Below are positions 6,587-18,987 of a stretch of DNA of 43,091 nt, piece by piece. The notes under the pieces are model-generated. The model was given only the letters and a program-made list of their open reading frames with translations, did no database searches and was not told the origin of the DNA. This DNA comes from an uncultured Candidatus Saccharibacteria bacterium (GTDB lineage: Bacteria; Patescibacteriota; Saccharimonadia; Saccharimonadales; Saccharimonadaceae): the NCBI GenBank assembly GCA_947087275.1, contig CAMUBZ010000008.1:1-43091 (forward strand), in the 5' to 3' direction. Position 1 is the first letter of the stretch. Every line of letters begins with the position of its first letter. A program made the position numbers and the translations under genes.

Positions 6587-8623
6587 CTATTTCTCGGTGA
6601 GAGTGAGCTCGGAAAGTGGTTTGCCTTCGATGATACCCATGATATTGTCGTGGGCGGTTTTGACGGTTTCTTGGTTGGGCTCCATGACATAGAGCAATTG
6701 TTGACCCATGGAGTAAGTATAATTATGCGAATCGCTACCATTAAGGCTATACTGGCCGATTTGCCAGGACGGCATACTTTGGAGTTGCATCTTGACAAGG
6801 CTGCTGATCTCATTCTTGCCGATATTGGTGGTGAGGCAGTTGGCAAGGTTGTCGAGGATTTCGGCGTATTTGGTAAGGATGACGGTGGAACCACTGACTT
6901 TCTTGATGATGGCGCTAATCACGTCTTGTTGGTTTTGGACGCGGTGACGGTCGCCAGTGGCGTATGATTTGCGTTCGCGCGCGAAAGCGAGGGCCATAGC
7001 GCCGTCCATATGGACGTTACCCTTGGGGATAGTAATATTGCGATTAGTCCAGGGTACGAATTGTTGGTCGGAATAAACATCAATGCCGCCAATAGTATCA
7101 ACCAGGCTAACAACAGTGGAGAAATTGACTTTGAGATAATAATCAATATCGATGTCGAGCAGATCCTCTAGAGTTTGCATGGACATTTGGACGCCATAGA
7201 TGCCGGCGTGGGTGAGTTTGTCGCGGTAGCCAGTGGTGCCATGGAGCTGTACATAATAATCGCGCGGGATAGAAGTGAGCAAAACTTCGTGGGTGGTGGG
7301 GTTGACGGTAGCGAGCATGTTGACATCGCTACGGCCACGTTGCATGTTGGACATGTCGCCATAGGCATCGATGCCGCTGATGAAAACAGTGAATGGTTCG
7401 GTGGATATATTAACGTTGATATCGCCTATGGAATCTGCGGTGTCAACGCGAACTTCAATAGTATATAGTACGCGTGTAGTGCTGCTGAAACTGTCTTCGT
7501 TTTCTTCAGTAAGATCGTCGAGCACTTCTTGGTGGACGGCACTAATCAAAACGGCGTCGGCTTCGTGGTTGCTAAGGCTAGCGGCGAGCGCACTGATTGA
7601 GTCAACGGTTTTGAACTCTACTTTAATTAGGGCTTGTAATTTTTTGAGAGCTTCTTGATAGATATCCTGACTTTCGTCATAAGTAGCAATGGTTTTGCCG
7701 CGGAGGTCGTGGATTTCTTGATAGTCAGAATCTTTTTCGACGACTACGTAATAGCTTTCGGTGAGATAATCTTGGCCTTTGAGACTGTCGAAGAAGTCAA
7801 AGGTTTTGTCGAGATAGCTAATGCCAAAAATATAAACCGCGCTAAAAATGATGGAAAGTAAGAAGAATGGGATTTTGATGGCGGGTTTGACTCTGCGGTG
7901 AATCATGAGAACACTAAATCCGATTGCAATGACGCCTAGGATGGCGAGTGCAGGTAGGAGATAAGTATTGGGTAGAAGGTTAATACCGACGACCATGGCG
8001 CCGAGAATGGCGCTACTGACGAGCAAAATGAGAGAAAGAATGCCGCCGATAATTTGGAAGACTTTGCGGGGTTTGGAGTCGAGTTTAGTATTTTTGGACT
8101 TCTTAGTCTCCGCTTTAGAACTTTTGGTGGACTTTTTGGGCTTATCCAGAGCGAATTCATCAACATCATAATCTTCGACGCGCTTTTCCAGATCGCCCCA
8201 ATCCATCTCGGTGTTGCCGGCCGTGGTCTTGCTGCGGTCAGCGGGGATAGTGAACGAATCGATGGATTTGCCGGATTTTTTGGTGGTAGGCTTCTTGGCA
8301 GTAGATTTTTGAGCGGTTGGTTTTTTAGCCGCCGTAGACGTGGATTTGCTTTGGCTGGTTTTGCTGCTAGATTTTGCACTGGTAGATTTTTTGGCAGGTT
8401 TGACGTCGGTTAATTTGGGGGAAGATTTGGAATTAGCACCGGACTTAGATGTAGCCTTGGCTGAAGCGGACTTTGAGGCATTTTTGCCAGAAGTGGTTTT
8501 AGATTTTGCAGATTCGCTTGCCGTCTTGACTGTAACTTTGGTAGTTTTATCCTTCGGCTTAGCGCTAACGTTAGAGCTCTTTTTGGTGGCTGGTTTTTTG
8601 GAGGTTGATTTTGCTTCTGGCAT
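6587..8623 (-). CDS. LytR-CpsA-Psr (LCP) family cell-wall glycopolymer ligase
   Basis: LCP enzymes move lipid-linked polymers to peptidoglycan outside the membrane. In this 678-aa protein, residues 1 to about 188 are a Lys/Ser/Thr low-complexity cytoplasmic tail. Three membrane helices follow (about 189-212, 219-240, 251-272), then an accessory domain (about 285-405) and the LCP catalytic domain (about 412-600). LCP hallmarks are present: RSDVNML (430-436), SIPRD with R454, FARERK with R549, and DRHRVQNQQ (558-566). The CpsA-like arrangement and position behind the polysaccharide operon suggest it anchors that polymer. It has its own promoter at 8668-8696. Confidence 0.92.
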   Translation of the reverse strand: MPEAKSTSKKPATKKSSNVSAKPKDKTTKVTVKTASESAKSKTTSGKNASKSASAKATSKSGANSKSSPKLTDVKPAKKSTSAKSSSKTSQSKSTSTAAKKPTAQKSTAKKPTTKKSGKSIDSFTIPADRSKTTAGNTEMDWGDLEKRVEDYDVDEFALDKPKKSTKSSKAETKKSKNTKLDSKPRKVFQIIGGILSLILLVSSAILGAMVVGINLLPNTYLLPALAILGVIAIGFSVLMIHRRVKPAIKIPFFLLSIIFSAVYIFGISYLDKTFDFFDSLKGQDYLTESYYVVVEKDSDYQEIHDLRGKTIATYDESQDIYQEALKKLQALIKVEFKTVDSISALAASLSNHEADAVLISAVHQEVLDDLTEENEDSFSSTTRVLYTIEVRVDTADSIGDINVNISTEPFTVFISGIDAYGDMSNMQRGRSDVNMLATVNPTTHEVLLTSIPRDYYVQLHGTTGYRDKLTHAGIYGVQMSMQTLEDLLDIDIDYYLKVNFSTVVSLVDTIGGIDVYSDQQFVPWTNRNITIPKGNVHMDGAMALAFARERKSYATGDRHRVQNQQDVISAIIKKVSGSTVILTKYAEILDNLANCLTTNIGKNEISSLVKMQLQSMPSWQIGQYSLNGSDSHNYTYSMGQQLLYVMEPNQETVKTAHDNIMGIIEGKPLSELTLTEK

Positions 8624-8667: not shown

Positions 8668-8696
8668 ATTATAGCGCTTAGGTTCGTTTATGACAA
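8668..8696 (-). promoter_or_regulatory. Sigma70-type promoter of the LCP gene
   Basis: Minus strand TTGTCA (8691-8696), 17 nt, TATAAT (8668-8673), 45 nt before the ATG. It lies between the flippase stop and the LCP start, so the ligase can be made independently of the phase-variable operon. Confidence 0.8.
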
Positions 8697-8710: not shown

Positions 8711-10231
8711 TTAGACACCTTTCTTCATTAGTTGTTTGATTCTGGCTTTGCAGCGTTGGAATTCCTCGGTATGACATGTTGTAATGGTAAAAATAAATAA
8801 TGTGCATATTGCCGTTATGATTGCTTTTATGATGATATGGGGTAGGGTTGTTTCAGTAATTAGTTGACTAATTAGGATACTTGGTATAGAACTTATTAGT
8901 ATAATAACAATATAAAAAGTTTGCTTCAGTATAAAGTTGGAGTATCCTTGTTTAAAGATTTTTTTATAAAGCAAATATGGTTGATGCCAACTAGTAATAA
9001 GTAGCCGAGATATTGCCGTAGCTAATAATATACCGAATACTCCAAACGCTCTGCCCATTATAAAGGATAAGACGATATTGATCACAGCAAGTAAGATAGT
9101 ATCGTTCTTGGCATCTTTGAATAACCCGGATGTATCACGGAATGTCCAAACCGGATTTTGCATAGTGTAAATGTAAAAGTTAATAATAACAATTATCATA
9201 ATATTATTATCCATGAGATAGTCGCTACCGACCCAAATTGTTATAAAGTTGCTAAATATTGCAATCAACTCTACAGCGCAAAAGCCAGTAATTAGGAAAC
9301 AAATATAGTTTAATTGCATAAAAACCGACTCTTGTTTGGCGGTGTTTTTTTCTGTCATCAAGTTGCCAACGCTTGCCGTGACTGCATTAAAGAAGATAAA
9401 TATAATGTTCGATAATGCTGAAACTACCATGTAATAGTTTGAATAAAAACCGACTGCGATAGTATCGACTAACATTGATATAAAAATGTTATCTGTATTG
9501 TTTAGAATTGTGCCGCTGACTTTGTATAGGAAAATTGATGAAACATTCTCTCGAATTTCTTTTTTGCGCGATGGATGCAAATCGGCTGGTTGCTTGATAT
9601 ATGGATACATCCTGTCAGCTACGATGGAGCATAAAATGTTGTTGAGCAGTGTACAGAATATTTGCACGACAAGAAATGCGATGTAACTTTGTGATATTGC
9701 AAGAGTTATAGTTTGTATCAACAGTTGCACTATTAGAACTGACGTGTTGATTACTTTTGTAACGTACATCTTTTGTTGGGTGTTGATAATAGATGTTTTG
9801 TATACGAATGTATATGAGCAGATTGTATTAATCAAAAACAATAAATAGTATACAATGAGATCTTGATTGCTTAGGCTAGAATGAACGATATATGGTAGAA
9901 AAGGTATAAGTATACATCCTGCTACGATGATAACACCGATAATTCCCACATATATACGCCTGTAATAGTTTAATAGGGCAGCAATTTGTCTCTCGTCCTT
10001 GTTTTTAATAGGTTTATACATGCTATATATGATGGCGTTCCCAAAACCTAATTCTGCCATTGACAACAAGGAGAGGATGTTTGTATATAAACCACTAATA
10101 CCAAGCATTTCTGCGCCGAGATAATGGATGAAGACTGTTCTAGTGATAAAGTTGATTAGTAATACGATAATCTGTGTTGCGAACCCAAATGTAACATTTT
10201 TAGCGCTATTCTGTGTGCGGTTTTTTGACAT
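8711..10231 (-). CDS. Polysaccharide flippase, Wzx/MOP family
   Basis: A 506-aa integral membrane protein with about 12-14 hydrophobic helices spread over the whole length, as in lipid-linked repeat-unit flippases. The N-terminus (KNVTFGFATQIIVLLINFIT, then FIHYLGAEMLGISGLYTNIL) is typical of the MOP polysaccharide family, as is MAELGFGNAIIYSMYKPI. It would move undecaprenyl-linked repeat units to the outer face. It begins one base after the CapA-like gene and is the last gene of the operon. The locus is visibly richer in A/T and in ATA and TTA codons than the ribosomal genes, consistent with a variable or transferred capsule locus. Confidence 0.9.
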   Translation of the reverse strand: MSKNRTQNSAKNVTFGFATQIIVLLINFITRTVFIHYLGAEMLGISGLYTNILSLLSMAELGFGNAIIYSMYKPIKNKDERQIAALLNYYRRIYVGIIGVIIVAGCILIPFLPYIVHSSLSNQDLIVYYLLFLINTICSYTFVYKTSIINTQQKMYVTKVINTSVLIVQLLIQTITLAISQSYIAFLVVQIFCTLLNNILCSIVADRMYPYIKQPADLHPSRKKEIRENVSSIFLYKVSGTILNNTDNIFISMLVDTIAVGFYSNYYMVVSALSNIIFIFFNAVTASVGNLMTEKNTAKQESVFMQLNYICFLITGFCAVELIAIFSNFITIWVGSDYLMDNNIMIIVIINFYIYTMQNPVWTFRDTSGLFKDAKNDTILLAVINIVLSFIMGRAFGVFGILLATAISRLLITSWHQPYLLYKKIFKQGYSNFILKQTFYIVIILISSIPSILISQLITETTLPHIIIKAIITAICTLFIFTITTCHTEEFQRCKARIKQLMKKGV

Positions 10232-11338
10232 TTATGAGACCTCTAACTTATATGAATATTTAACGGCTTCATCTTTATTACCTAGTATCCTGTTGACGCG
10301 CTGAATGATCTCCTGTAAGTGCTTTTTGTCGTTTTCTGATGAGCTATAGTATATGTCGGCGATATTGCGGCAAATTGGGGCTTTATCTATAGTGGTCTTA
10401 ACTATACTATATTCTATGCCGACAATTTGTTTTGCTTCTTGGTCTATGATAATAGTGACGGCGATAGACGTGTCTGGGAAATCGTCTTTTTGGTTGTGAT
10501 TAGAATACGGAGTAGCAAAAAAGTTGCCTAAGGAGTAAAAAACTAATGTATTGCATATTTTTTTGGCTTTCAACACGACATGGGGGTGATTTGCTATGAT
10601 TAAATCTACGCCGAGCTGGCTAATATGTTTACAAAGTTTTTTGGTGTAGTGTTCAATATGCTTATTGTATTGCCCACCGGTATGTAGGCATACAACTGTT
10701 ATGTCGGCGTTCCGTTTAGCGGTTTTGATTTTATTTTCGAGTCTATGAAGATAAACTTTGTCACGACGGTACGAGAAGAAACTCGCGTTTTCGCATATCT
10801 TGTTTTTAAGTTTTCTAATGAGCGAGTGACTATGCTCTTGTTTTTTGAGCAAATCTACACGAAACAGATCTTCTTGTTTTAGATAATTGTGATTAATGAA
10901 AGCATTTGTCCCATATGTATAAGATAAAAATGCTACTTTTGTGCCTTTAAGATTTTTAATAAAGACTTTATTGCTGTCGGATAAAGTTCTATAGGTGCCT
11001 GTATGCTCTATATTTAAGGCATCGAGATTCTCGATATTCTCTTCTAAACCATTAATCCCGCAGTCTAAACAGTGATTATTTGCAGTTGATACAAAATTGA
11101 TACCTGCATCTTTGAGGGATTGGGCAAATTTGATTGGTGCGGAAAAAGCATATTTTGGCATATTGTGGCGAATCTCTTGTACAATTGGGACTTCTAAGTT
11201 GCCAACTGTATAGTCTGCTGCAATGAGACGTTTAGTAATGCCCTTATCGATGAAATTGGAGTAGTTGTTTTTGGACATGACATTATGGTTGTCACACATG
11301 ATGTCACCTGTAAACATTAAACTGATTTTATTGTTCAT
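10232..11338 (-). CDS. CapA-family (PgsA-like) metallophosphoesterase-fold protein
   Basis: A 368-aa protein of the CapA/PgsA family, which has a calcineurin-like phosphoesterase fold and occurs in poly-gamma-glutamate capsule and other polymer loci. Motifs in order are FTGDIM (9-14), VGNLEVPI, STANNHCLDCG, TVVCLHTGGQY and IIANHPHVV followed by YSLGNFF. No N-terminal membrane anchor is seen, unlike many CapA proteins, so it may be cytoplasmic or borne on a partner. It abuts the flippase gene and follows the PP-loop gene by one base. Without CapB or CapC homologues a polyglutamate capsule is unlikely; processing of the polysaccharide is inferred. Confidence 0.85.
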   Translation of the reverse strand: MNNKISLMFTGDIMCDNHNVMSKNNYSNFIDKGITKRLIAADYTVGNLEVPIVQEIRHNMPKYAFSAPIKFAQSLKDAGINFVSTANNHCLDCGINGLEENIENLDALNIEHTGTYRTLSDSNKVFIKNLKGTKVAFLSYTYGTNAFINHNYLKQEDLFRVDLLKKQEHSHSLIRKLKNKICENASFFSYRRDKVYLHRLENKIKTAKRNADITVVCLHTGGQYNKHIEHYTKKLCKHISQLGVDLIIANHPHVVLKAKKICNTLVFYSLGNFFATPYSNHNQKDDFPDTSIAVTIIIDQEAKQIVGIEYSIVKTTIDKAPICRNIADIYYSSSENDKKHLQEIIQRVNRILGNKDEAVKYSYKLEVS

Positions 11339-11339
11339 G

Positions 11340-12584
11340 CTATCCCTGTGTAATTAATCGTAGTAATTTCCGTAACCTCTTTCTAACGGCGTAGCATACT
11401 TTATAGAAGTATTTTTCTTTATACTGATTGACTGTGTTGAAATCATAGTCGTAAATCCATGCATAGCGAATGTCTTTCCTGAGTTCAGGGTGTTCTTGGA
11501 ATGCCTTTTGAATATCTTGCCATAGTAAAGGGTATTGAATAAAGATTTTATTTTGGATTGCTCTTTTGGCATTGCTATAGTCGTGTTCTGTGAGATTAAA
11601 GCCAACTAGTTGTGGGTCACATCCGTTAGCAGCAAAATTAAATATTGTACGATAGCATTTTTCGCAATGTTGGCAATTTTCAACCCTGTAGTCATCTAGA
11701 CATACGCGTAGATGCAGTTTTTTGTTGTGTTTCTTAATAAAGTCGGCGACGATACGGCTTTTGTCTGTGCGATCGTTTTCGTACCCGTCATGAATGACGT
11801 TTGTATTGCATAGTTTGACTTGATTGTCTATGGTTGGATCAGAGGCACATGGAGCATGATTCCTCCTAGAAAATGAAGACGCGATATATATTGTTTTTAA
11901 GTTTTTTAGGTATGCGATTGGCGCTGCGTGTGAAATAATTGCTATACCGTGTTGAAGAGCGTGCCAATAGTTGTCGTGCAAGAGGGGTTTAATGTATTTT
12001 GTCGCCTGTTTTTCGTTTATTACTTTTCTAAACTCTGAATTGATGAAAGTAATTTGCAAACCTAGGGTATTTGCGGTATTTAATAAATGTTCCTCAACTG
12101 CATTTACTATTTTATTATAGCGAAGGTTTATATCAGACCCCTGAATATTAATTAGTAATGGACGTTCATTGAAATGGGAAGCTACTGTGGACATAGCATC
12201 GAGCCCACCACTAAAGAAGGCTGCCACCTTGTTTGTAGTGGGGCGAGTATTGTCTATTTCGTTTTTTATAATTAGCTTACCGGCAAAATTGATTTGTGGG
12301 TACATTTTTGCGTAGCCTTTTTTGATATTGGAGATGCTTCGTGCAAATGCGATGTCTAATTCTTGAATTTTTACTGTGGCGTTACAGAGCCATACAAGTG
12401 GCATAATGTTGGCCACAAAGTGGATATTACAAATTGATAGCGGGACTTTGGTTATATCATGGTCGTAGGTAACAGTATATTGTCTTCTAGATGTGAAAAA
12501 GCGCGTCCATTTACCATCGACGGCGTAGTGATAGGTAATGGAATGCTGGGTGACTTTTGTTGTAGTGAGCGTAATTGTATTCAT
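11340..12584 (-). CDS. PP-loop (N-type ATP pyrophosphatase) protein in the polysaccharide locus
   Basis: A 414-aa soluble protein of no family I can name. Residues 121-131 (AAFFSGGLDAM) resemble the SGGxDS PP-loop that binds ATP in QueC-, asparagine synthase- and ThiI-like enzymes, with Ala where Ser is usual. Further on, ENCQHCEKCYRT is a CxxCxxC cluster like a zinc site. Residues 1-100 look like a separate beta-rich domain. The chemistry would be adenylation of a carboxyl or carbonyl group, then amide or thio transfer. Its place between the pyruvyl transferase and CapA-like genes, with gaps of one base, suggests a sugar-modification role. Substrate unknown. Confidence 0.6.
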   Translation of the reverse strand: MNTITLTTTKVTQHSITYHYAVDGKWTRFFTSRRQYTVTYDHDITKVPLSICNIHFVANIMPLVWLCNATVKIQELDIAFARSISNIKKGYAKMYPQINFAGKLIIKNEIDNTRPTTNKVAAFFSGGLDAMSTVASHFNERPLLINIQGSDINLRYNKIVNAVEEHLLNTANTLGLQITFINSEFRKVINEKQATKYIKPLLHDNYWHALQHGIAIISHAAPIAYLKNLKTIYIASSFSRRNHAPCASDPTIDNQVKLCNTNVIHDGYENDRTDKSRIVADFIKKHNKKLHLRVCLDDYRVENCQHCEKCYRTIFNFAANGCDPQLVGFNLTEHDYSNAKRAIQNKIFIQYPLLWQDIQKAFQEHPELRKDIRYAWIYDYDFNTVNQYKEKYFYKVCYAVRKRLRKLLRLITQG

Positions 12585-12585
12585 A

Positions 12586-13557
12586 TTATTGGAATTGTCC
12601 TTTCCAGGCTTTAATTCCCTTTTCGTTTATGTTGATATTGGTTACGATATTTGATTTCAGAATTTTATCTAAGTTATGGATGTCTCGTCGCTCGATGGTG
12701 TTTAGACTATAACTTTTTTTCATATCGCGAGTGCGATTATCTATACTAATTATAACACTACGTACGAGATTTTGCATGGCGAAAATCCCAGCATGGAGTC
12801 TTGTCCCGACATAATCAACATTACCATCTGCCAGTGCGTGTTGATATGCTGCAAGATGTGGCGGAATGATTGTGATTCGTTCTGTGTTCTTTAGACTTTT
12901 GAGATATGAAAAGTCTTCTGCACCTTGCACCCAATAGGCTACGTTATCATAATTTTCTAATAAGATGTTGATGAGTAACTGATCTTGGATGGGGTCTTTT
13001 TTGTAATCAGTGAGCGTAAATATTGTGTTCTTGGCCTTTACTGTTGGTATTTTTGCGCAGTGTTCTTTGGTCAGACACCAGGTTGTGGCGCATCCGGTAT
13101 TAATAGCGCGCAGCCCAAGAGATTCTAAAACTTGCTTAGTCTTTTCGTCGCGAGTAGAGTGGACATATTCTTTGCTAAGAATTTTTCTATATAGGTGTTT
13201 GGTATACGTATCCATTGCCGGACGATTAGGATTAATTCCGGCCCCAATGAGGATGGAATTCTTGTATGGTGCGCAATTACAAATATTAACATTCCAGTTT
13301 GCCCAGGGTCGCATCATGTGGTATTGCAGGATGTTTGTTCCAGCAATAAATTTATATTGTGCTTCTTGGCAATACCTATATAAAGGATTTTTGTTTGTAT
13401 TTTGATACCAGTGCGATATTGGCGTATGAGTGGCGTATTCTACGAGGAAGTCGTTGGTGATTATATCTTTTATCTCCCGTTTGATTGAATCGTAAATGAT
13501 ATAATCACCAACGTTTTGGCTTCCGCATGCTGTGTTAAATATGATGTTCTTGTTCAT
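12586..13557 (-). CDS. Polysaccharide pyruvyl transferase family protein
   Basis: A 323-aa member of the CsaB/WcaK/AmsJ family, which adds pyruvate ketals from PEP to sugars. Features are the start IFNTACGSQNVGDYIIYDSI (G-x-x-N-x-G-D pattern), ILIGAGINPN, STRDEKT (the family's S-x-R-D), and the C-terminal DGNVDYVGTRLHAGIFAM, where R-L-H is the conserved nucleotide-site motif. I placed the start at the ATG at 13557 because AGGAGA precedes it; an upstream in-frame ATG at 13572 has no such site. It lies 22 nt after the EpsG-like gene. Pyruvylation would make the polymer acidic, a common feature of S-layer-binding and exopolysaccharides. Confidence 0.85.
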   Translation of the reverse strand: MNKNIIFNTACGSQNVGDYIIYDSIKREIKDIITNDFLVEYATHTPISHWYQNTNKNPLYRYCQEAQYKFIAGTNILQYHMMRPWANWNVNICNCAPYKNSILIGAGINPNRPAMDTYTKHLYRKILSKEYVHSTRDEKTKQVLESLGLRAINTGCATTWCLTKEHCAKIPTVKAKNTIFTLTDYKKDPIQDQLLINILLENYDNVAYWVQGAEDFSYLKSLKNTERITIIPPHLAAYQHALADGNVDYVGTRLHAGIFAMQNLVRSVIISIDNRTRDMKKSYSLNTIERRDIHNLDKILKSNIVTNININEKGIKAWKGQFQ

Positions 13558-13579
13558 TGTTTCTCCTAGCATTGTATTT

Positions 13580-14743
13580 TTATTGTTTTTTGACTTGAGG
13601 CCTTGCTGCTTCTAGATAGAATCTGTATGTTTGGTATCCTGACTCAACGGCACTAGATGAGCTGTAGTATGTAAGTTCGTAACACACAAAGAATGCTATT
13701 ACGCAATAAAGCAGCTTGATATTATTCTTGTAAATATAAAATAGGATGTTTGGTATTAAGATGAGGTAAAACACAAAGAAGTATGTGGTTAATCGTCCGA
13801 AAGTATATGACCGAACAACAAAAGTTTGGATGATAGTGCATATTATGATGGTATGATATAAACACTTGGCTTTATTGTCCAGTTCAAGCATTTTTTTGTA
13901 TGGTATTATACAGAACGCTAGCAGAACTAGGCGTATTAGTAGGTTTAGAATGGTTGAAAGCTTAAACGATAGATCCAGATATGACCCAAAGTACATTTGA
14001 CCATAGTGCGTTTGGGAGACAAGCGCTAATAATGGACTGTATAATATATGTATTAATACGGTTAGAGCTGCATAGATGATTAGTGTCTGTTTTGTGATGT
14101 TAATTTTCGAGATAAAATATATCGGCAAGAAAATTAATGCGCTATTATGAATGCTGGCTGCGATAATGATGGTCATTAAGAATTTTGGCAAATTGCGTTT
14201 TGGAACGATGAAATTATATGAGAAGAACACTAAAGCGATTGCTAGCATTTGCCTATATTGATTAAAAGTTTGAAAGAAAAGGCATGTGCTTATAAAGATA
14301 AATATACCTAAAGCTGGGTTTTTGCTGTGTTTCCAGATTGTTTGATAAAATAATAATATGGTGACAAGGCTTAAGCACGCAAAGAAGATATGATAATCTA
14401 TATGTAAGAAGGCAAATACGGTAGCGATACTCCTAAATCCAATGCCTAGCCAAGCGCTCTGTTGGGTGCTTAACGTTCTGTGCGCTATTGCTTCGTATGC
14501 TGCTTTATACGACTTCGTGTCAACTCCGACAGAGTCATTTTTGAGAACTATTAGTAGAAAGAGTGGTAGAAAAGATATTAAGAGGTATAGAAATGTATAG
14601 GAGACTTTAATGGAAATATTCTTTGTCTGGAAAGTGAGAGTACGGTTATTATTACGCTTTTTGTTCGCGACATACATGAAATATACGGCTATGGCCTCTG
14701 CTGCGGAGTATAGTAGTATTGTATTGATGATATCCGAATTCAT
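13580..14743 (-). CDS. EpsG-like polysaccharide polymerase (Wzy function)
   Basis: A 387-aa membrane protein with about ten helices. The N-terminal part has the EpsG family pattern: two helices, then SVGVDTKSYKAAYEAI with the conserved G-x-D-x-x-x-Y, and later FIFISTCLFFQTFNQYRQMLAIALVFFSY, where N-x-x-R-Q is the family's conserved core. EpsG-type proteins are inferred to polymerise lipid-linked repeat units on the outer side of the membrane. Its start overlaps the stop of the upstream glycosyltransferase gene (ATGA), showing translational coupling. No other polymerase candidate is in the operon. Confidence 0.85.
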   Translation of the reverse strand: MNSDIINTILLYSAAEAIAVYFMYVANKKRNNNRTLTFQTKNISIKVSYTFLYLLISFLPLFLLIVLKNDSVGVDTKSYKAAYEAIAHRTLSTQQSAWLGIGFRSIATVFAFLHIDYHIFFACLSLVTILLFYQTIWKHSKNPALGIFIFISTCLFFQTFNQYRQMLAIALVFFSYNFIVPKRNLPKFLMTIIIAASIHNSALIFLPIYFISKINITKQTLIIYAALTVLIHILYSPLLALVSQTHYGQMYFGSYLDLSFKLSTILNLLIRLVLLAFCIIPYKKMLELDNKAKCLYHTIIICTIIQTFVVRSYTFGRLTTYFFVFYLILIPNILFYIYKNNIKLLYCVIAFFVCYELTYYSSSSAVESGYQTYRFYLEAARPQVKKQ

Positions 14744-16704
14744 ATTTTCCTCTGTAACGCCGCCCGATTATAAAACTGTGTATAGATATTTGCTAGATTG
14801 GCGGCTGCTTCTATAATATCATATGCTTGACTAATTGAGTATGTGCGTTTTGAACCAACGCTCTTAATGATAGCTTCGCTCCAAACACGAGGAGAGGTGT
14901 CAATTGGGAGAAAAACCGCTTTGTTGCTGATTTTTACCTCTTTGGTGATACTTTTAGAGAAAAAACATGGTAATCCTGCAATTTGTGCTTCGATTCCTGT
15001 AACTGGCAGACCTTCAAAAAGAGAGGGTAGAACAAAAACATCAATACCCTGATAAAATTCGTCAGTATTTTTGATAGTCCCCAAGAAACGTATTGATTTT
15101 GTCAGATTAAGGTTCGAGGCGTACTCCGTGATTTCCGGCAACAGTTTTCCTGTGCCGGCCAAGAGCAGGATTGAATTTGGGTTGATTGCTTGAACTTCTT
15201 TGAAGATTTCAAGGAGATATTTGTGATTCTTTTGTTCATCAAAACGACCTATGTGGCCGATAACAGTTTTGTGATCTAGATGGTTGGTTTTTCGGTAGAC
15301 TTTCCTTTTGTCTGGACTAAACTTAAATCTATTAACATTGACTGCATTGGGTATAATTGTAAAAGATTTATTTTTAAAAAGGTATTTTCCAGCTTCAGTT
15401 GAGCAGGCAAAATTGTGTGTTGATACGAAACGTACCGGACGCATCAAGATGGCTTTTATTGTCCCTTTTAGCGTATTCTCTGTTTTGGAATTATGACTAT
15501 GTGCAATTCTTACCTTGACGCCATTCTTTTTTGCTATCATCATATGAATGAAACCGATACTATTCATATGACAGTGGATCACCTTGTATTCTGGATGCTC
15601 TCTATAGAATTTGTTCAAAAGACGTATATATTTTACGAGATTATTATCATCTCGTAGTGTAAAGCGATAAATCTTTCCACCTAATTGTCTAATTTCGTTA
15701 TCATAAAAAGAATCTTTTTGGTAGTGCACGAGGAAGTCAAATTGTATGTTATATTTATGCATTTCTCGATACCAATTCATAATTAGACTTTCGAGACCTC
15801 CTGCTTGCATATTTGGTACTATGTGTAGGATTCTAATCTCTGTTTCACGATTAGAATTAACCGTGTGTGGCCGTTTGCGCAATAGATTTCTGTAAGTCCA
15901 GTCGCGCAAGCTATTAGGCATTAAGCACGTAACGATGTGCGGCATGGCGCTAACTATATAATCTTTTTTCGAAAAGAAACCTGTTGCGACTTGTTCCTTT
16001 TTAAATTTTAGAATGGACTTAAGATATTTGATTCCCCCGCGACGCTTATAGAAATCTTTATCAACACGCATATATGTAAGCGGCTCTTGAATGTTATAAC
16101 ATTTACAGCTAGTTTGGAGCAACCTTGTGTACAGATCGTAATCTTCACAAAGATGATATGAACGGTAATTTCCGGCTTTTAGGATGGCGCTTTTTTTATA
16201 CAATAGCGAGGGGTGACGAAATGGACAACGTTTTTTTGCAAAGGAGTAGATTTGCTGCTGTTTTTCTGGCAATGTAACATGAGAGATGACATTATCGATC
16301 GTACCGTTAAATTCTTCTACGTTTGAGCCTACTAGGTCGAGTTCGGGATACTTCTCAAAAGTATTTAGTTGTTTCTCAATGCGTTTTGGCACTGCGTAAT
16401 CATCAGCGTCCATGCGTGCAATATACTCGTTATGACAATGCTCGATACCCGCCTTAAGAGCTAACCCCAAACCGATATTTTCTTTTAGTTGAACGACATT
16501 AAAGAGTTTGGGTTGCTTTTTCTTGTAGCTATTAAGAACCTTACCAATTTCTGGTGTGACTGGGCCATCTTTGATGATGACGAACTCTGTTGGTTGGACG
16601 GTTTGCGCGAGTATACTCTCGATACTTTGTTTGAGCCATTCCGGGTTATCCTTATGATAGACGCTCATCAGAACGCTGTAAGGAGGATATTCTTTAGTTG
16701 TCAT
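14740..16704 (-). CDS. Bifunctional glycosyltransferase: GT2 domain fused to GT4 domain
   Basis: A 654-aa soluble protein with two glycosyltransferase domains. Residues about 8-230 are GT-A fold family 2: YSVLMSVYHKDNPEWLKQSI, then EFVIIKDGP, ARMDADDYAVPKR with the metal-binding DxD, and the acidic CEDYDLYTRL. Residues about 290-645 are GT-B fold family 4, like EpsF: ILHIVPNMQAGGLESLIMNW, IHCHMNSIGF, NAVNVNRF, IGHIGRFDEQKN and the C-terminal PSLFEGLPVTGIEAQ with the E-x7-E motif. One polypeptide would thus add two sugars. No stop or frameshift separates the domains. It overlaps its neighbours on both sides. Confidence 0.92.
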   Translation of the reverse strand: MTTKEYPPYSVLMSVYHKDNPEWLKQSIESILAQTVQPTEFVIIKDGPVTPEIGKVLNSYKKKQPKLFNVVQLKENIGLGLALKAGIEHCHNEYIARMDADDYAVPKRIEKQLNTFEKYPELDLVGSNVEEFNGTIDNVISHVTLPEKQQQIYSFAKKRCPFRHPSLLYKKSAILKAGNYRSYHLCEDYDLYTRLLQTSCKCYNIQEPLTYMRVDKDFYKRRGGIKYLKSILKFKKEQVATGFFSKKDYIVSAMPHIVTCLMPNSLRDWTYRNLLRKRPHTVNSNRETEIRILHIVPNMQAGGLESLIMNWYREMHKYNIQFDFLVHYQKDSFYDNEIRQLGGKIYRFTLRDDNNLVKYIRLLNKFYREHPEYKVIHCHMNSIGFIHMMIAKKNGVKVRIAHSHNSKTENTLKGTIKAILMRPVRFVSTHNFACSTEAGKYLFKNKSFTIIPNAVNVNRFKFSPDKRKVYRKTNHLDHKTVIGHIGRFDEQKNHKYLLEIFKEVQAINPNSILLLAGTGKLLPEITEYASNLNLTKSIRFLGTIKNTDEFYQGIDVFVLPSLFEGLPVTGIEAQIAGLPCFFSKSITKEVKISNKAVFLPIDTSPRVWSEAIIKSVGSKRTYSISQAYDIIEAAANLANIYTQFYNRAALQRKI

Positions 16705-17333
16705 TATTGAGCCCCTTCTTGACGCAAAACAGTACCAACGGTATGGAACAGGATTTTGACATCCAATACGATTCCACGATTCTCGATATAGAAATATTCA
16801 AGTTTGAGGCGTTCGTCGTAGTCGCTGTTTTTATCACTGCGAATGCGCATGGCCCAATATCCAGTCACGCCGGGTTTAACGGACTGGTACTTTTCGATGT
16901 CTTTGGTTTTACCGCCGTGTTCTTTGAGTTCTCCGGGGATGAGCGGACGTGGGCCCACCATAGACATCTGTCCTAGCAGGACATTGACGAATTGTGGAAA
17001 TTCGTCAATCGAGCCCTTACGAATGAATTTGCCAACTTTGGTAATGCGAGGATCGTTGTCGAGTTTTTGGAATTCTTCCCACTGATTGCGATATTTTTTC
17101 TGCTTGAGGAGTTTTTCCAGGACTTTGTCGGCATTTGGTACCATGGAGCGGTACTTGATAATTTTGAAAGTTTTGCCATTTTTGCCGATGCGCTCCTGGG
17201 TATAAAAAATGGGGTGAAAATCACCAGTACAGATGTAAACTAGTTTGATAATCACGGTGAGTGGTATTAAAACAATCAGTCCCACAAGGCCAATCAAGAT
17301 ATCGCTCAATCGCTTCACGCATGCGTAAATCAT
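16704..17333 (-). CDS. Initiating undecaprenyl-phosphate sugar phosphotransferase (PglC/WcaJ-type)
   Basis: A 209-aa monotopic phosphoglycosyl transferase that transfers a sugar phosphate from a nucleotide sugar to undecaprenyl phosphate, the first step of repeat-unit assembly. One N-terminal re-entrant/membrane helix (about 10-32) is followed by family motifs FYTQERIGKNGKTFKIIKYRSM, RKGSIDEFPQFVNVL with the catalytic Asp-Glu pair, MSMVGPRPLIPGE and KPGVTGYWA. The length fits the short PglC form without the extra helices of WcaJ. It is the first gene of the operon, and its leader carries an 11-G tract. A modest AAGGA lies 14 nt before the ATG, a rather long spacing. Confidence 0.93.
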   Translation of the reverse strand: MIYACVKRLSDILIGLVGLIVLIPLTVIIKLVYICTGDFHPIFYTQERIGKNGKTFKIIKYRSMVPNADKVLEKLLKQKKYRNQWEEFQKLDNDPRITKVGKFIRKGSIDEFPQFVNVLLGQMSMVGPRPLIPGELKEHGGKTKDIEKYQSVKPGVTGYWAMRIRSDKNSDYDERLKLEYFYIENRGIVLDVKILFHTVGTVLRQEGAQ

Positions 17334-17353
17334 GGTGCTCGCTAAAATCCTTA

Positions 17354-17364
17354 CCCCCCCCCCC
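17354..17364 (-). repeat. 11-base homopolymeric G tract in the polysaccharide operon leader
   Basis: On the minus strand eleven G occur between the -10 box (17387-17392) and the first ATG (17333). By position they fall about 16-26 nt into the predicted transcript. An in-frame TAA lies just upstream of the tract, so it is not coding. Tracts of this length mutate by slipped-strand mispairing in many bacteria. Confidence 0.9.
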
Positions 17365-17386: not shown

Positions 17387-17395
17387 ATTATAGCA
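17387..17395 (-). promoter_or_regulatory. Proximal promoter of the polysaccharide operon
   Basis: Minus strand TGC-TATAAT (hexamer 17387-17392), an extended -10 with poor -35. A 6-bp inverted repeat (GCCATG, 5-nt loop, CATGGC; 17403-17419) covers the -35 position and may bind a regulator. Confidence 0.65.
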
Positions 17396-17440
17396 CGAAA
17401 ATGCCATGAGCGACATGGCTTGGCGCGCTAATTTAACTTG

Positions 17441-17469
17441 ATTATATCATAGATTGTGGGAAATGGGAA
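17441..17469 (-). promoter_or_regulatory. Distal promoter of the polysaccharide operon
   Basis: Minus strand TTCCCA (17464-17469), 17 nt, TATAAT (17441-17446), about 54 bp upstream of the proximal promoter. The rest of 17470-17560 shows nothing I can name. Confidence 0.5.
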
Positions 17470-18453: not shown

Positions 18454-18987
18454 CTACATTTCATAATAATACGACGTCTCAAGCCCTTTGAGGATTTTGG
18501 TGTCGGAAAAGTCGTCGGTGAGATTATCGGAAATTAGAGTTTTGAGTTCTAGGCTATTGACTGGGCTGCGTTCCATGGCCTGGAGATACAGTGTTTTGTC
18601 GATTTTCTCCCAGTCGACAATTTTGCCTAGATTTTGCTTCAACATGAGGTCAAGCCAGATGCGCGTACTGCGGCCATTCCCTTCCAAAAATGGGTGGGCG
18701 ATGTTCATCTCTACATATTTGGCGATAATTTCGTCGAAAGTTGACATTGGCATAGTACCGATTTTGGCTAGAATTTCTGGAAGATAGAGTGTGTTGGCAA
18801 AGCGGAAATTGCTTTTGGAGATGTTTTGTTGGCGGATTTGCCCGGCAAAATCGTAAAGACCATCAAAAAGCGCATAGTGAATTTGTTGCAACCCGGCTGT
18901 GGTACCGATTTCTATATCCTCAATGGCAGGGCTGCCAAGAAGTTGCTTGGCATTGGCTAGGCTTTTTTGGTCGAGTTCGGATAACAT
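18454..18987 (-). CDS. Fic-family protein (AMP/NMP-transferase) with C-terminal inhibitory-type motif
   Basis: A 177-aa Fic-fold enzyme. The active-site motif HPFLEGNGR (98-106) is complete, with the catalytic His, acidic residue and Arg, so it should transfer a nucleotide monophosphate to a target hydroxyl. The flap region precedes it ([11 protein letters not shown]). The protein ends [11 protein letters not shown], placing S172-x3-E176 where class III Fic proteins carry their self-inhibitory (S/T)xxxE(G/N) helix; the final G/N is Met here. It may therefore be self-restrained. Extended -10 TGC-TAAAAT ends 6 nt before the ATG, implying a leaderless mRNA. The Cys-rich membrane protein gene follows. 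Confidence 0.92.

Follow-up and report, generated by a model that had tools for sequence, protein, structure and literature searches.

Judged by its sequence context, a run of eleven guanines before a capsule-type operon of an uncultured Saccharibacteria bacterium is a good candidate for a tract that switches or dials expression. As best explanation we propose, with a probability of about 0.5, that this run is a slippage-prone tract in a conserved mRNA leader and would tune the operon output stepwise, in analogy to uspA1 of Moraxella catarrhalis.

A poly-G tract upstream of a polysaccharide operon

The tract is located at positions 17354-17364 and reads as eleven C on the plus strand and as eleven G on the minus strand, which is the coding strand; it covers approximately positions +16 to +26 from the predicted transcription start. 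The 43-kb window, i.e., the whole stretch of DNA analysed, is one of the 15 contigs of an 829-kb genome; its longest homopolymer is this tract, which is also its only G or C run above five bases. Other G/C runs reach at most five bases and other runs of any kind at most seven, and a first-order Markov model predicted about 0.004 G/C runs of at least eleven bases for the window. All sense-strand frames entering the tract have a stop closely upstream, and the bases from this stop to the tract include none of ATG, GTG and TTG, thus the tract is non-coding. A coding frame-shift switch was rejected, as no open frame has a start codon upstream. Eleven residues exceed the length of about eight that is counted as enough for a high slippage rate in contingency loci, and the site between the extended -10 element and the Shine-Dalgarno sequence of a polysaccharide operon is a position suited to such a locus. 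The first-pass annotation had reported a G11 run on the minus strand, as longest homopolymer of the window, non-coding and placed between the promoter and the first gene of a seven-gene polysaccharide operon; it was recovered exactly so, with the extended -10 element before it and UAAGGA and the start codon behind it.

On the sense strand, the elements are arranged in the order P1, inverted repeat, P2 (TTTTCGTGCTATAATTATATA), G11, TAAGGA, 14 nt and ATG. The extended -10 element of P2, TGCTATAAT (17387..17395, minus strand), is kept in the sister species G525 and before the orthologue in another genus member (G033), and the tract starts 22 nt past this -10 element. The extended -10 sequence TTTTCGTGCTATAAT was found again at other promoters of the genus, the TTTTCRTGCTATAAT string of P2 is also present at other gene starts, and the P2 string recurs near letter-for-letter upstream of unrelated genes. 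P2 therefore represents a genuine promoter type in the genus, and G11 is most likely transcribed; the predicted transcription start of the operon lies most likely about 7 nt after TGCTATAAT. P1 is a promoter-like element further upstream (TTCCCA-17-TATAAT with TG before the -10 box; 17441..17469, minus strand). Its -10 box is conserved in G525, and a P1-like string precedes a tRNA-like sequence elsewhere in the same genome. Between P1 and P2 lies the inverted repeat GCCATG-TCGCT-CATGGC (17403..17419, minus strand), perfect over 6 bp with a loop of 5 nt and followed by ATTTT, thus resembling a weak terminator or an operator; it is imperfect in G525.

The Shine-Dalgarno sequence TAAGGA (17348..17353, minus strand) directly follows the tract on its 3' side, 14 nt before the ATG, and is conserved in G525. 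The distance from TAAGGA to the ATG is independent of the length of G11, hence a simple Shine-Dalgarno spacing switch was ruled out: the tract is situated 5' of UAAGGA. An effect of G number would consequently have to be exerted by way of transcript start-up, the structure of the RNA or the length of the leader; a graded effect is probable in this case. The leader RNA folds weakly (z +1.4) and formed no stable structure in ordinary folding, a method with G-quadruplexes outside its scope, so that ordinary folding predicts no structural switch. A search of the leader against Rfam found no family, and no phage records matched the region.

The operon and its counterpart in a sister species

Seven genes on the same strand follow the tract with intergenic gaps of -4 to +8 bases. 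The first gene codes for a priming phosphoglycosyl transferase of 209 aa (16704..17333, minus strand as all genes of the operon; Bac_transf PF02397, E 1e-58), which is 94% identical in G525. It is followed by a fusion of GT2 and GT4 glycosyltransferases (14740..16704), an EpsG-type polymerase (13580..14743; PF14897), a polysaccharide pyruvyl transferase (12586..13572; PF04230), a protein of 414 aa without Pfam match (11340..12584), a CapA-like PGA_cap protein (10232..11338; PF09587) and a Wzx-type flippase (8711..10231; PF01943). By these domain assignments, the seven close-packed genes are predicted to serve Wzx/Wzy-like surface polymer synthesis. A LytR-CpsA-Psr (LCP) ligase (6587..8623, minus strand; PF03816), 83% identical in G525, forms a separate transcription unit; its own promoter beyond the operon, expected from the first reading of the DNA, was identified as TTGTCA-17-TATAAT (8668..8696, minus strand) and is free of a G tract. 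A gene of the Fic/DOC family is located upstream of the operon (18454-18987).

Among 174 genus genomes, the leader is common to this genome and G525 only, and the tract has eleven G in both. Outside the tract, the last 60 bases of the leader offer 49 sites for comparison with G525, of which 2 differ; for the fourfold sites of the priming transferase gene, the figure is 21 of 82 (26%; P about 8e-5). The leader is thus under constraint, which could stem from ordinary needs of the promoter and the ribosome site. The DNA upstream of the leader is unrelated in G525. Within the operon, EpsG is only 30% identical, extra GT2 genes or different glycosyltransferases are present in G525, and the CapA-like gene has no detectable counterpart there. 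The ends are thus conserved and the middle is diverged or replaced: a variable polymer cassette is framed by the promoter, leader and priming gene on one side and by the ligase on the other, both constant; a swapped or diverged middle is as expected for a surface polymer that would be under diversifying selection. Priming transferase orthologues in other members of the genus have short leaders and no tract. A strain comparison had been suggested as a way to detect length variation at the tract; G525, the one further species that has the leader, also carries exactly G11, thus no variation was seen at the operon tract.

Poly-G tracts in the genus and beyond

Genomes were surveyed by pattern searches with the reversed pattern as control. 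This genome contains ten G or C runs of at least eight bases. Across 60 genomes of the genus, runs of at least eight G within 0-4 nt of TATAAT gave 41 overlapping matches against none of the reversed control. Runs of at least ten G numbered about 78, spread over 31 of the 60 genomes; after inspection as distinct runs, 24 of 72 were situated in a -35/-10 spacer, mostly adjoining the -10 box, against 1 of 72 for the reversed control. A run was assigned to this spacer class if it lay inside the spacer of a -35/-10 pair with a score of 9 or more out of 12; the spacers were 15-20 nt long. A strongly hydrophobic N-terminus, called by a heuristic distinct from a signal-peptide predictor, was present in 24 of 36 first genes behind poly-G tracts and in 31% of background ORFs. 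By this measure, the products of such first genes are often secreted or membrane proteins. Tracts lying at the end of a contig (L020, L112, L119) were excluded as possible assembly artefacts.

The leader placement itself was not enriched: TATAAT-N10-32-G9 yielded about 10 distinct tracts in 147 genus genomes, against about 9 genomes with control matches. Leader tracts of independent appearance were found in three genomes, a G14 before a GT2 gene (G025), a G10 located 8 nt before the ATG (G475) and a G9 (G063), and several other matches to the leader pattern were coding or spacer tracts.

Two spacer-type promoters were observed elsewhere in the same genome (the pair L023/L025). TTGACC-TTTTTCT-G9-TATAAT precedes the gene of a 472-aa signal-peptide protein (G000:C10:9225), and TTGACT-TTTC-G14-TAGAAT is situated upstream of a 308-aa frame with a weak match to an HNH repeat (G000:C13:154). 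A conserved coding tract, G9 in this genome (L009, G000:C4:7183) and G12 in G014 (L094), follows the codons for ...RREEAxNFY; the assembled frame ends soon past the tract, and the conserved frame NCVETITSFMLL... follows in another phase. This tract is a candidate translational switch that would be out of frame in both assemblies. In several genus members, G10 tracts are found close to the codons for the signal peptide in genes of secreted proteins (L070, L088, L102, L124, L104, L105) and are candidate frame switches by their position.

A stricter pattern of the poly-G promoter was present in 15 of 380 Patescibacteria genomes with 19 matches, against one match of the control. Among the matches listed, TTGAC-n-G8-TATAAT promoters were common in gut Clostridia, Bacilli, spirochaetes and others (L138-L217), and named records of Saccharibacteria from ruminant intestine carried the same promoter type. 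This promoter type is thus not peculiar to Saccharibacteria. The genus studied here most likely belongs to the gut Saccharibacteria.

MutS (PF00488) was detected in none of the 60 genus genomes and in 11 of 14 control genomes, and MutL is absent in this genome. For Saccharibacteria, the absence of MutS and MutL has likewise been reported (PMC8406219). Four tracts are common to this genome and G525, with lengths of 10/9, 9/9, 10/11 and, for the operon tract, 11/11, thus two of the four differ by one residue and the operon tract is equal, each length being one assembly consensus that is possibly wrong for homopolymers. Near-identical paralogous promoters inside single genomes have tracts of G15/G10 and G11/G10.

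Alternative roles of the tract

The equal length in both species would also suit a fixed leader element, in which about eleven G would be required to stabilise the transcript, to escape from the promoter or to load ribosomes, and the length would be selected without any switch. In agreement with this, G11 was retained although about a quarter of the fourfold sites changed, the entire leader is constrained, and leader placement of such tracts shows no enrichment. However, a homopolymer this long should slip often in a cell without MutS, other tracts common to the same two genomes vary in length, and the orthologous priming transferases elsewhere in the genus have no tract; a fixed element is thus conceivable, but rather doubtful. 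Slippage may as well be without effect, and the tract a hot spot of mutation in the leader that is neutral or close to neutral. We regard this as unlikely: the tract is kept across species within a strongly constrained leader, and the sole G/C run above five bases in the window falls just there, even though no structural effect is predicted, the Shine-Dalgarno spacing is unaffected, and tracts occur also at sites with no obvious role, e.g., between divergent genes (L013).

The commonest poly-G layout in the genus, the spacer arrangement, would be realised here if the tract separated the two boxes of another promoter further downstream, of the type TTGAC-n-Gn-TATAAT. The sequence behind the tract, TAAGGAT, is a poor -10 box, and a TTGACA-like -35 box is missing at the right distance; the best combined score is 7/12 against 9-12 in the spacer class. 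In addition, a strong promoter of the genus type lies immediately upstream of the tract, and a second promoter is therefore very improbable. For the same score, and with the tract downstream of TGCTATAAT, a porA-type spacer switch was rejected for G11.

Discussion

Our preferred reading, the mutable leader tract, starts from replication slippage, by which G11 would gain or lose G residues in a cell lacking mismatch repair. Leaders of differing G number may alter promoter clearance by the RNA polymerase, the openness of the ribosome site, or both; eleven G would be barely long enough for a two-tier G-quadruplex. Cells would consequently vary stepwise in polysaccharide output, with the LCP ligase expressed from its own promoter. 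The mode would be graded and transcriptional, as for the G tract upstream of uspA1, and unlike an all-or-none frame switch.

In uspA1, the G tract is located in the transcribed leader. The number of G upstream of its reading frame shifts transcription in graded steps, and like G11 the tract of about 9-12 G is non-coding and precedes the frame of a surface gene (PMC7302503). There, length variants and their effects were demonstrated for a single adhesin gene, whereas the target here is a seven-gene polysaccharide operon of Saccharibacteria, with a tract of equal length in both species. Homopolymers in promoter spacers are known from switches of the porA/opc and fim type. Spacer G tracts are also mentioned for Bifidobacterium breve (PMC9187656). 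These systems share with G11 that a surface gene has a G tract close to its -10 box, where slippage is expected to alter transcription, and many other tracts of the genus are of exactly this promoter-spacer type. Spacer tracts lie between the -35 and -10 boxes, in contrast to G11, which is situated downstream of the -10 box in the transcribed leader and therefore leaves the -35/-10 spacing unaltered. The pilus genes of B. breve offer a further G tract with slippage in a gut bacterium and for a surface structure, but those tracts are coding and switch the frame (PMC9187656), whereas the operon tract is non-coding.

The proposal of the first-pass annotation, a candidate phase-variation switch, was a reasonable guess that is partly supported and better founded through the genus context. 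The tract is real, the leader is genuine and the operon is of the surface-polymer kind, but both species that have the leader carry G11. Poly-G tracts at promoters, the lack of MutS and differences by one residue at other tracts favour the switch, whereas the leader position was not enriched. For the genus as a whole we consider it rather probable that many of its species, which lack MutS, run genome-wide poly-G contingency tracts which would vary the host- or immune-facing surface stochastically, mostly at the -10 boxes of genes for secreted or surface proteins, and elsewhere in signal-peptide codons and, for the present operon, in a capsule-type leader.

Our search of the open-access literature on phase variation in Saccharibacteria retrieved nothing on point. 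To our knowledge, Saccharibacteria are ultrasmall, and all cultured cases are epibiotic; how they vary their surface is the question on which G11 bears. Should the tracts slip, an epibiont would switch its surface polysaccharide and its secreted proteins stochastically, which would matter for attachment to the host, escape from phages and contact with the immune system; the loss of MutS and MutL, already known, would acquire a possible adaptive side.
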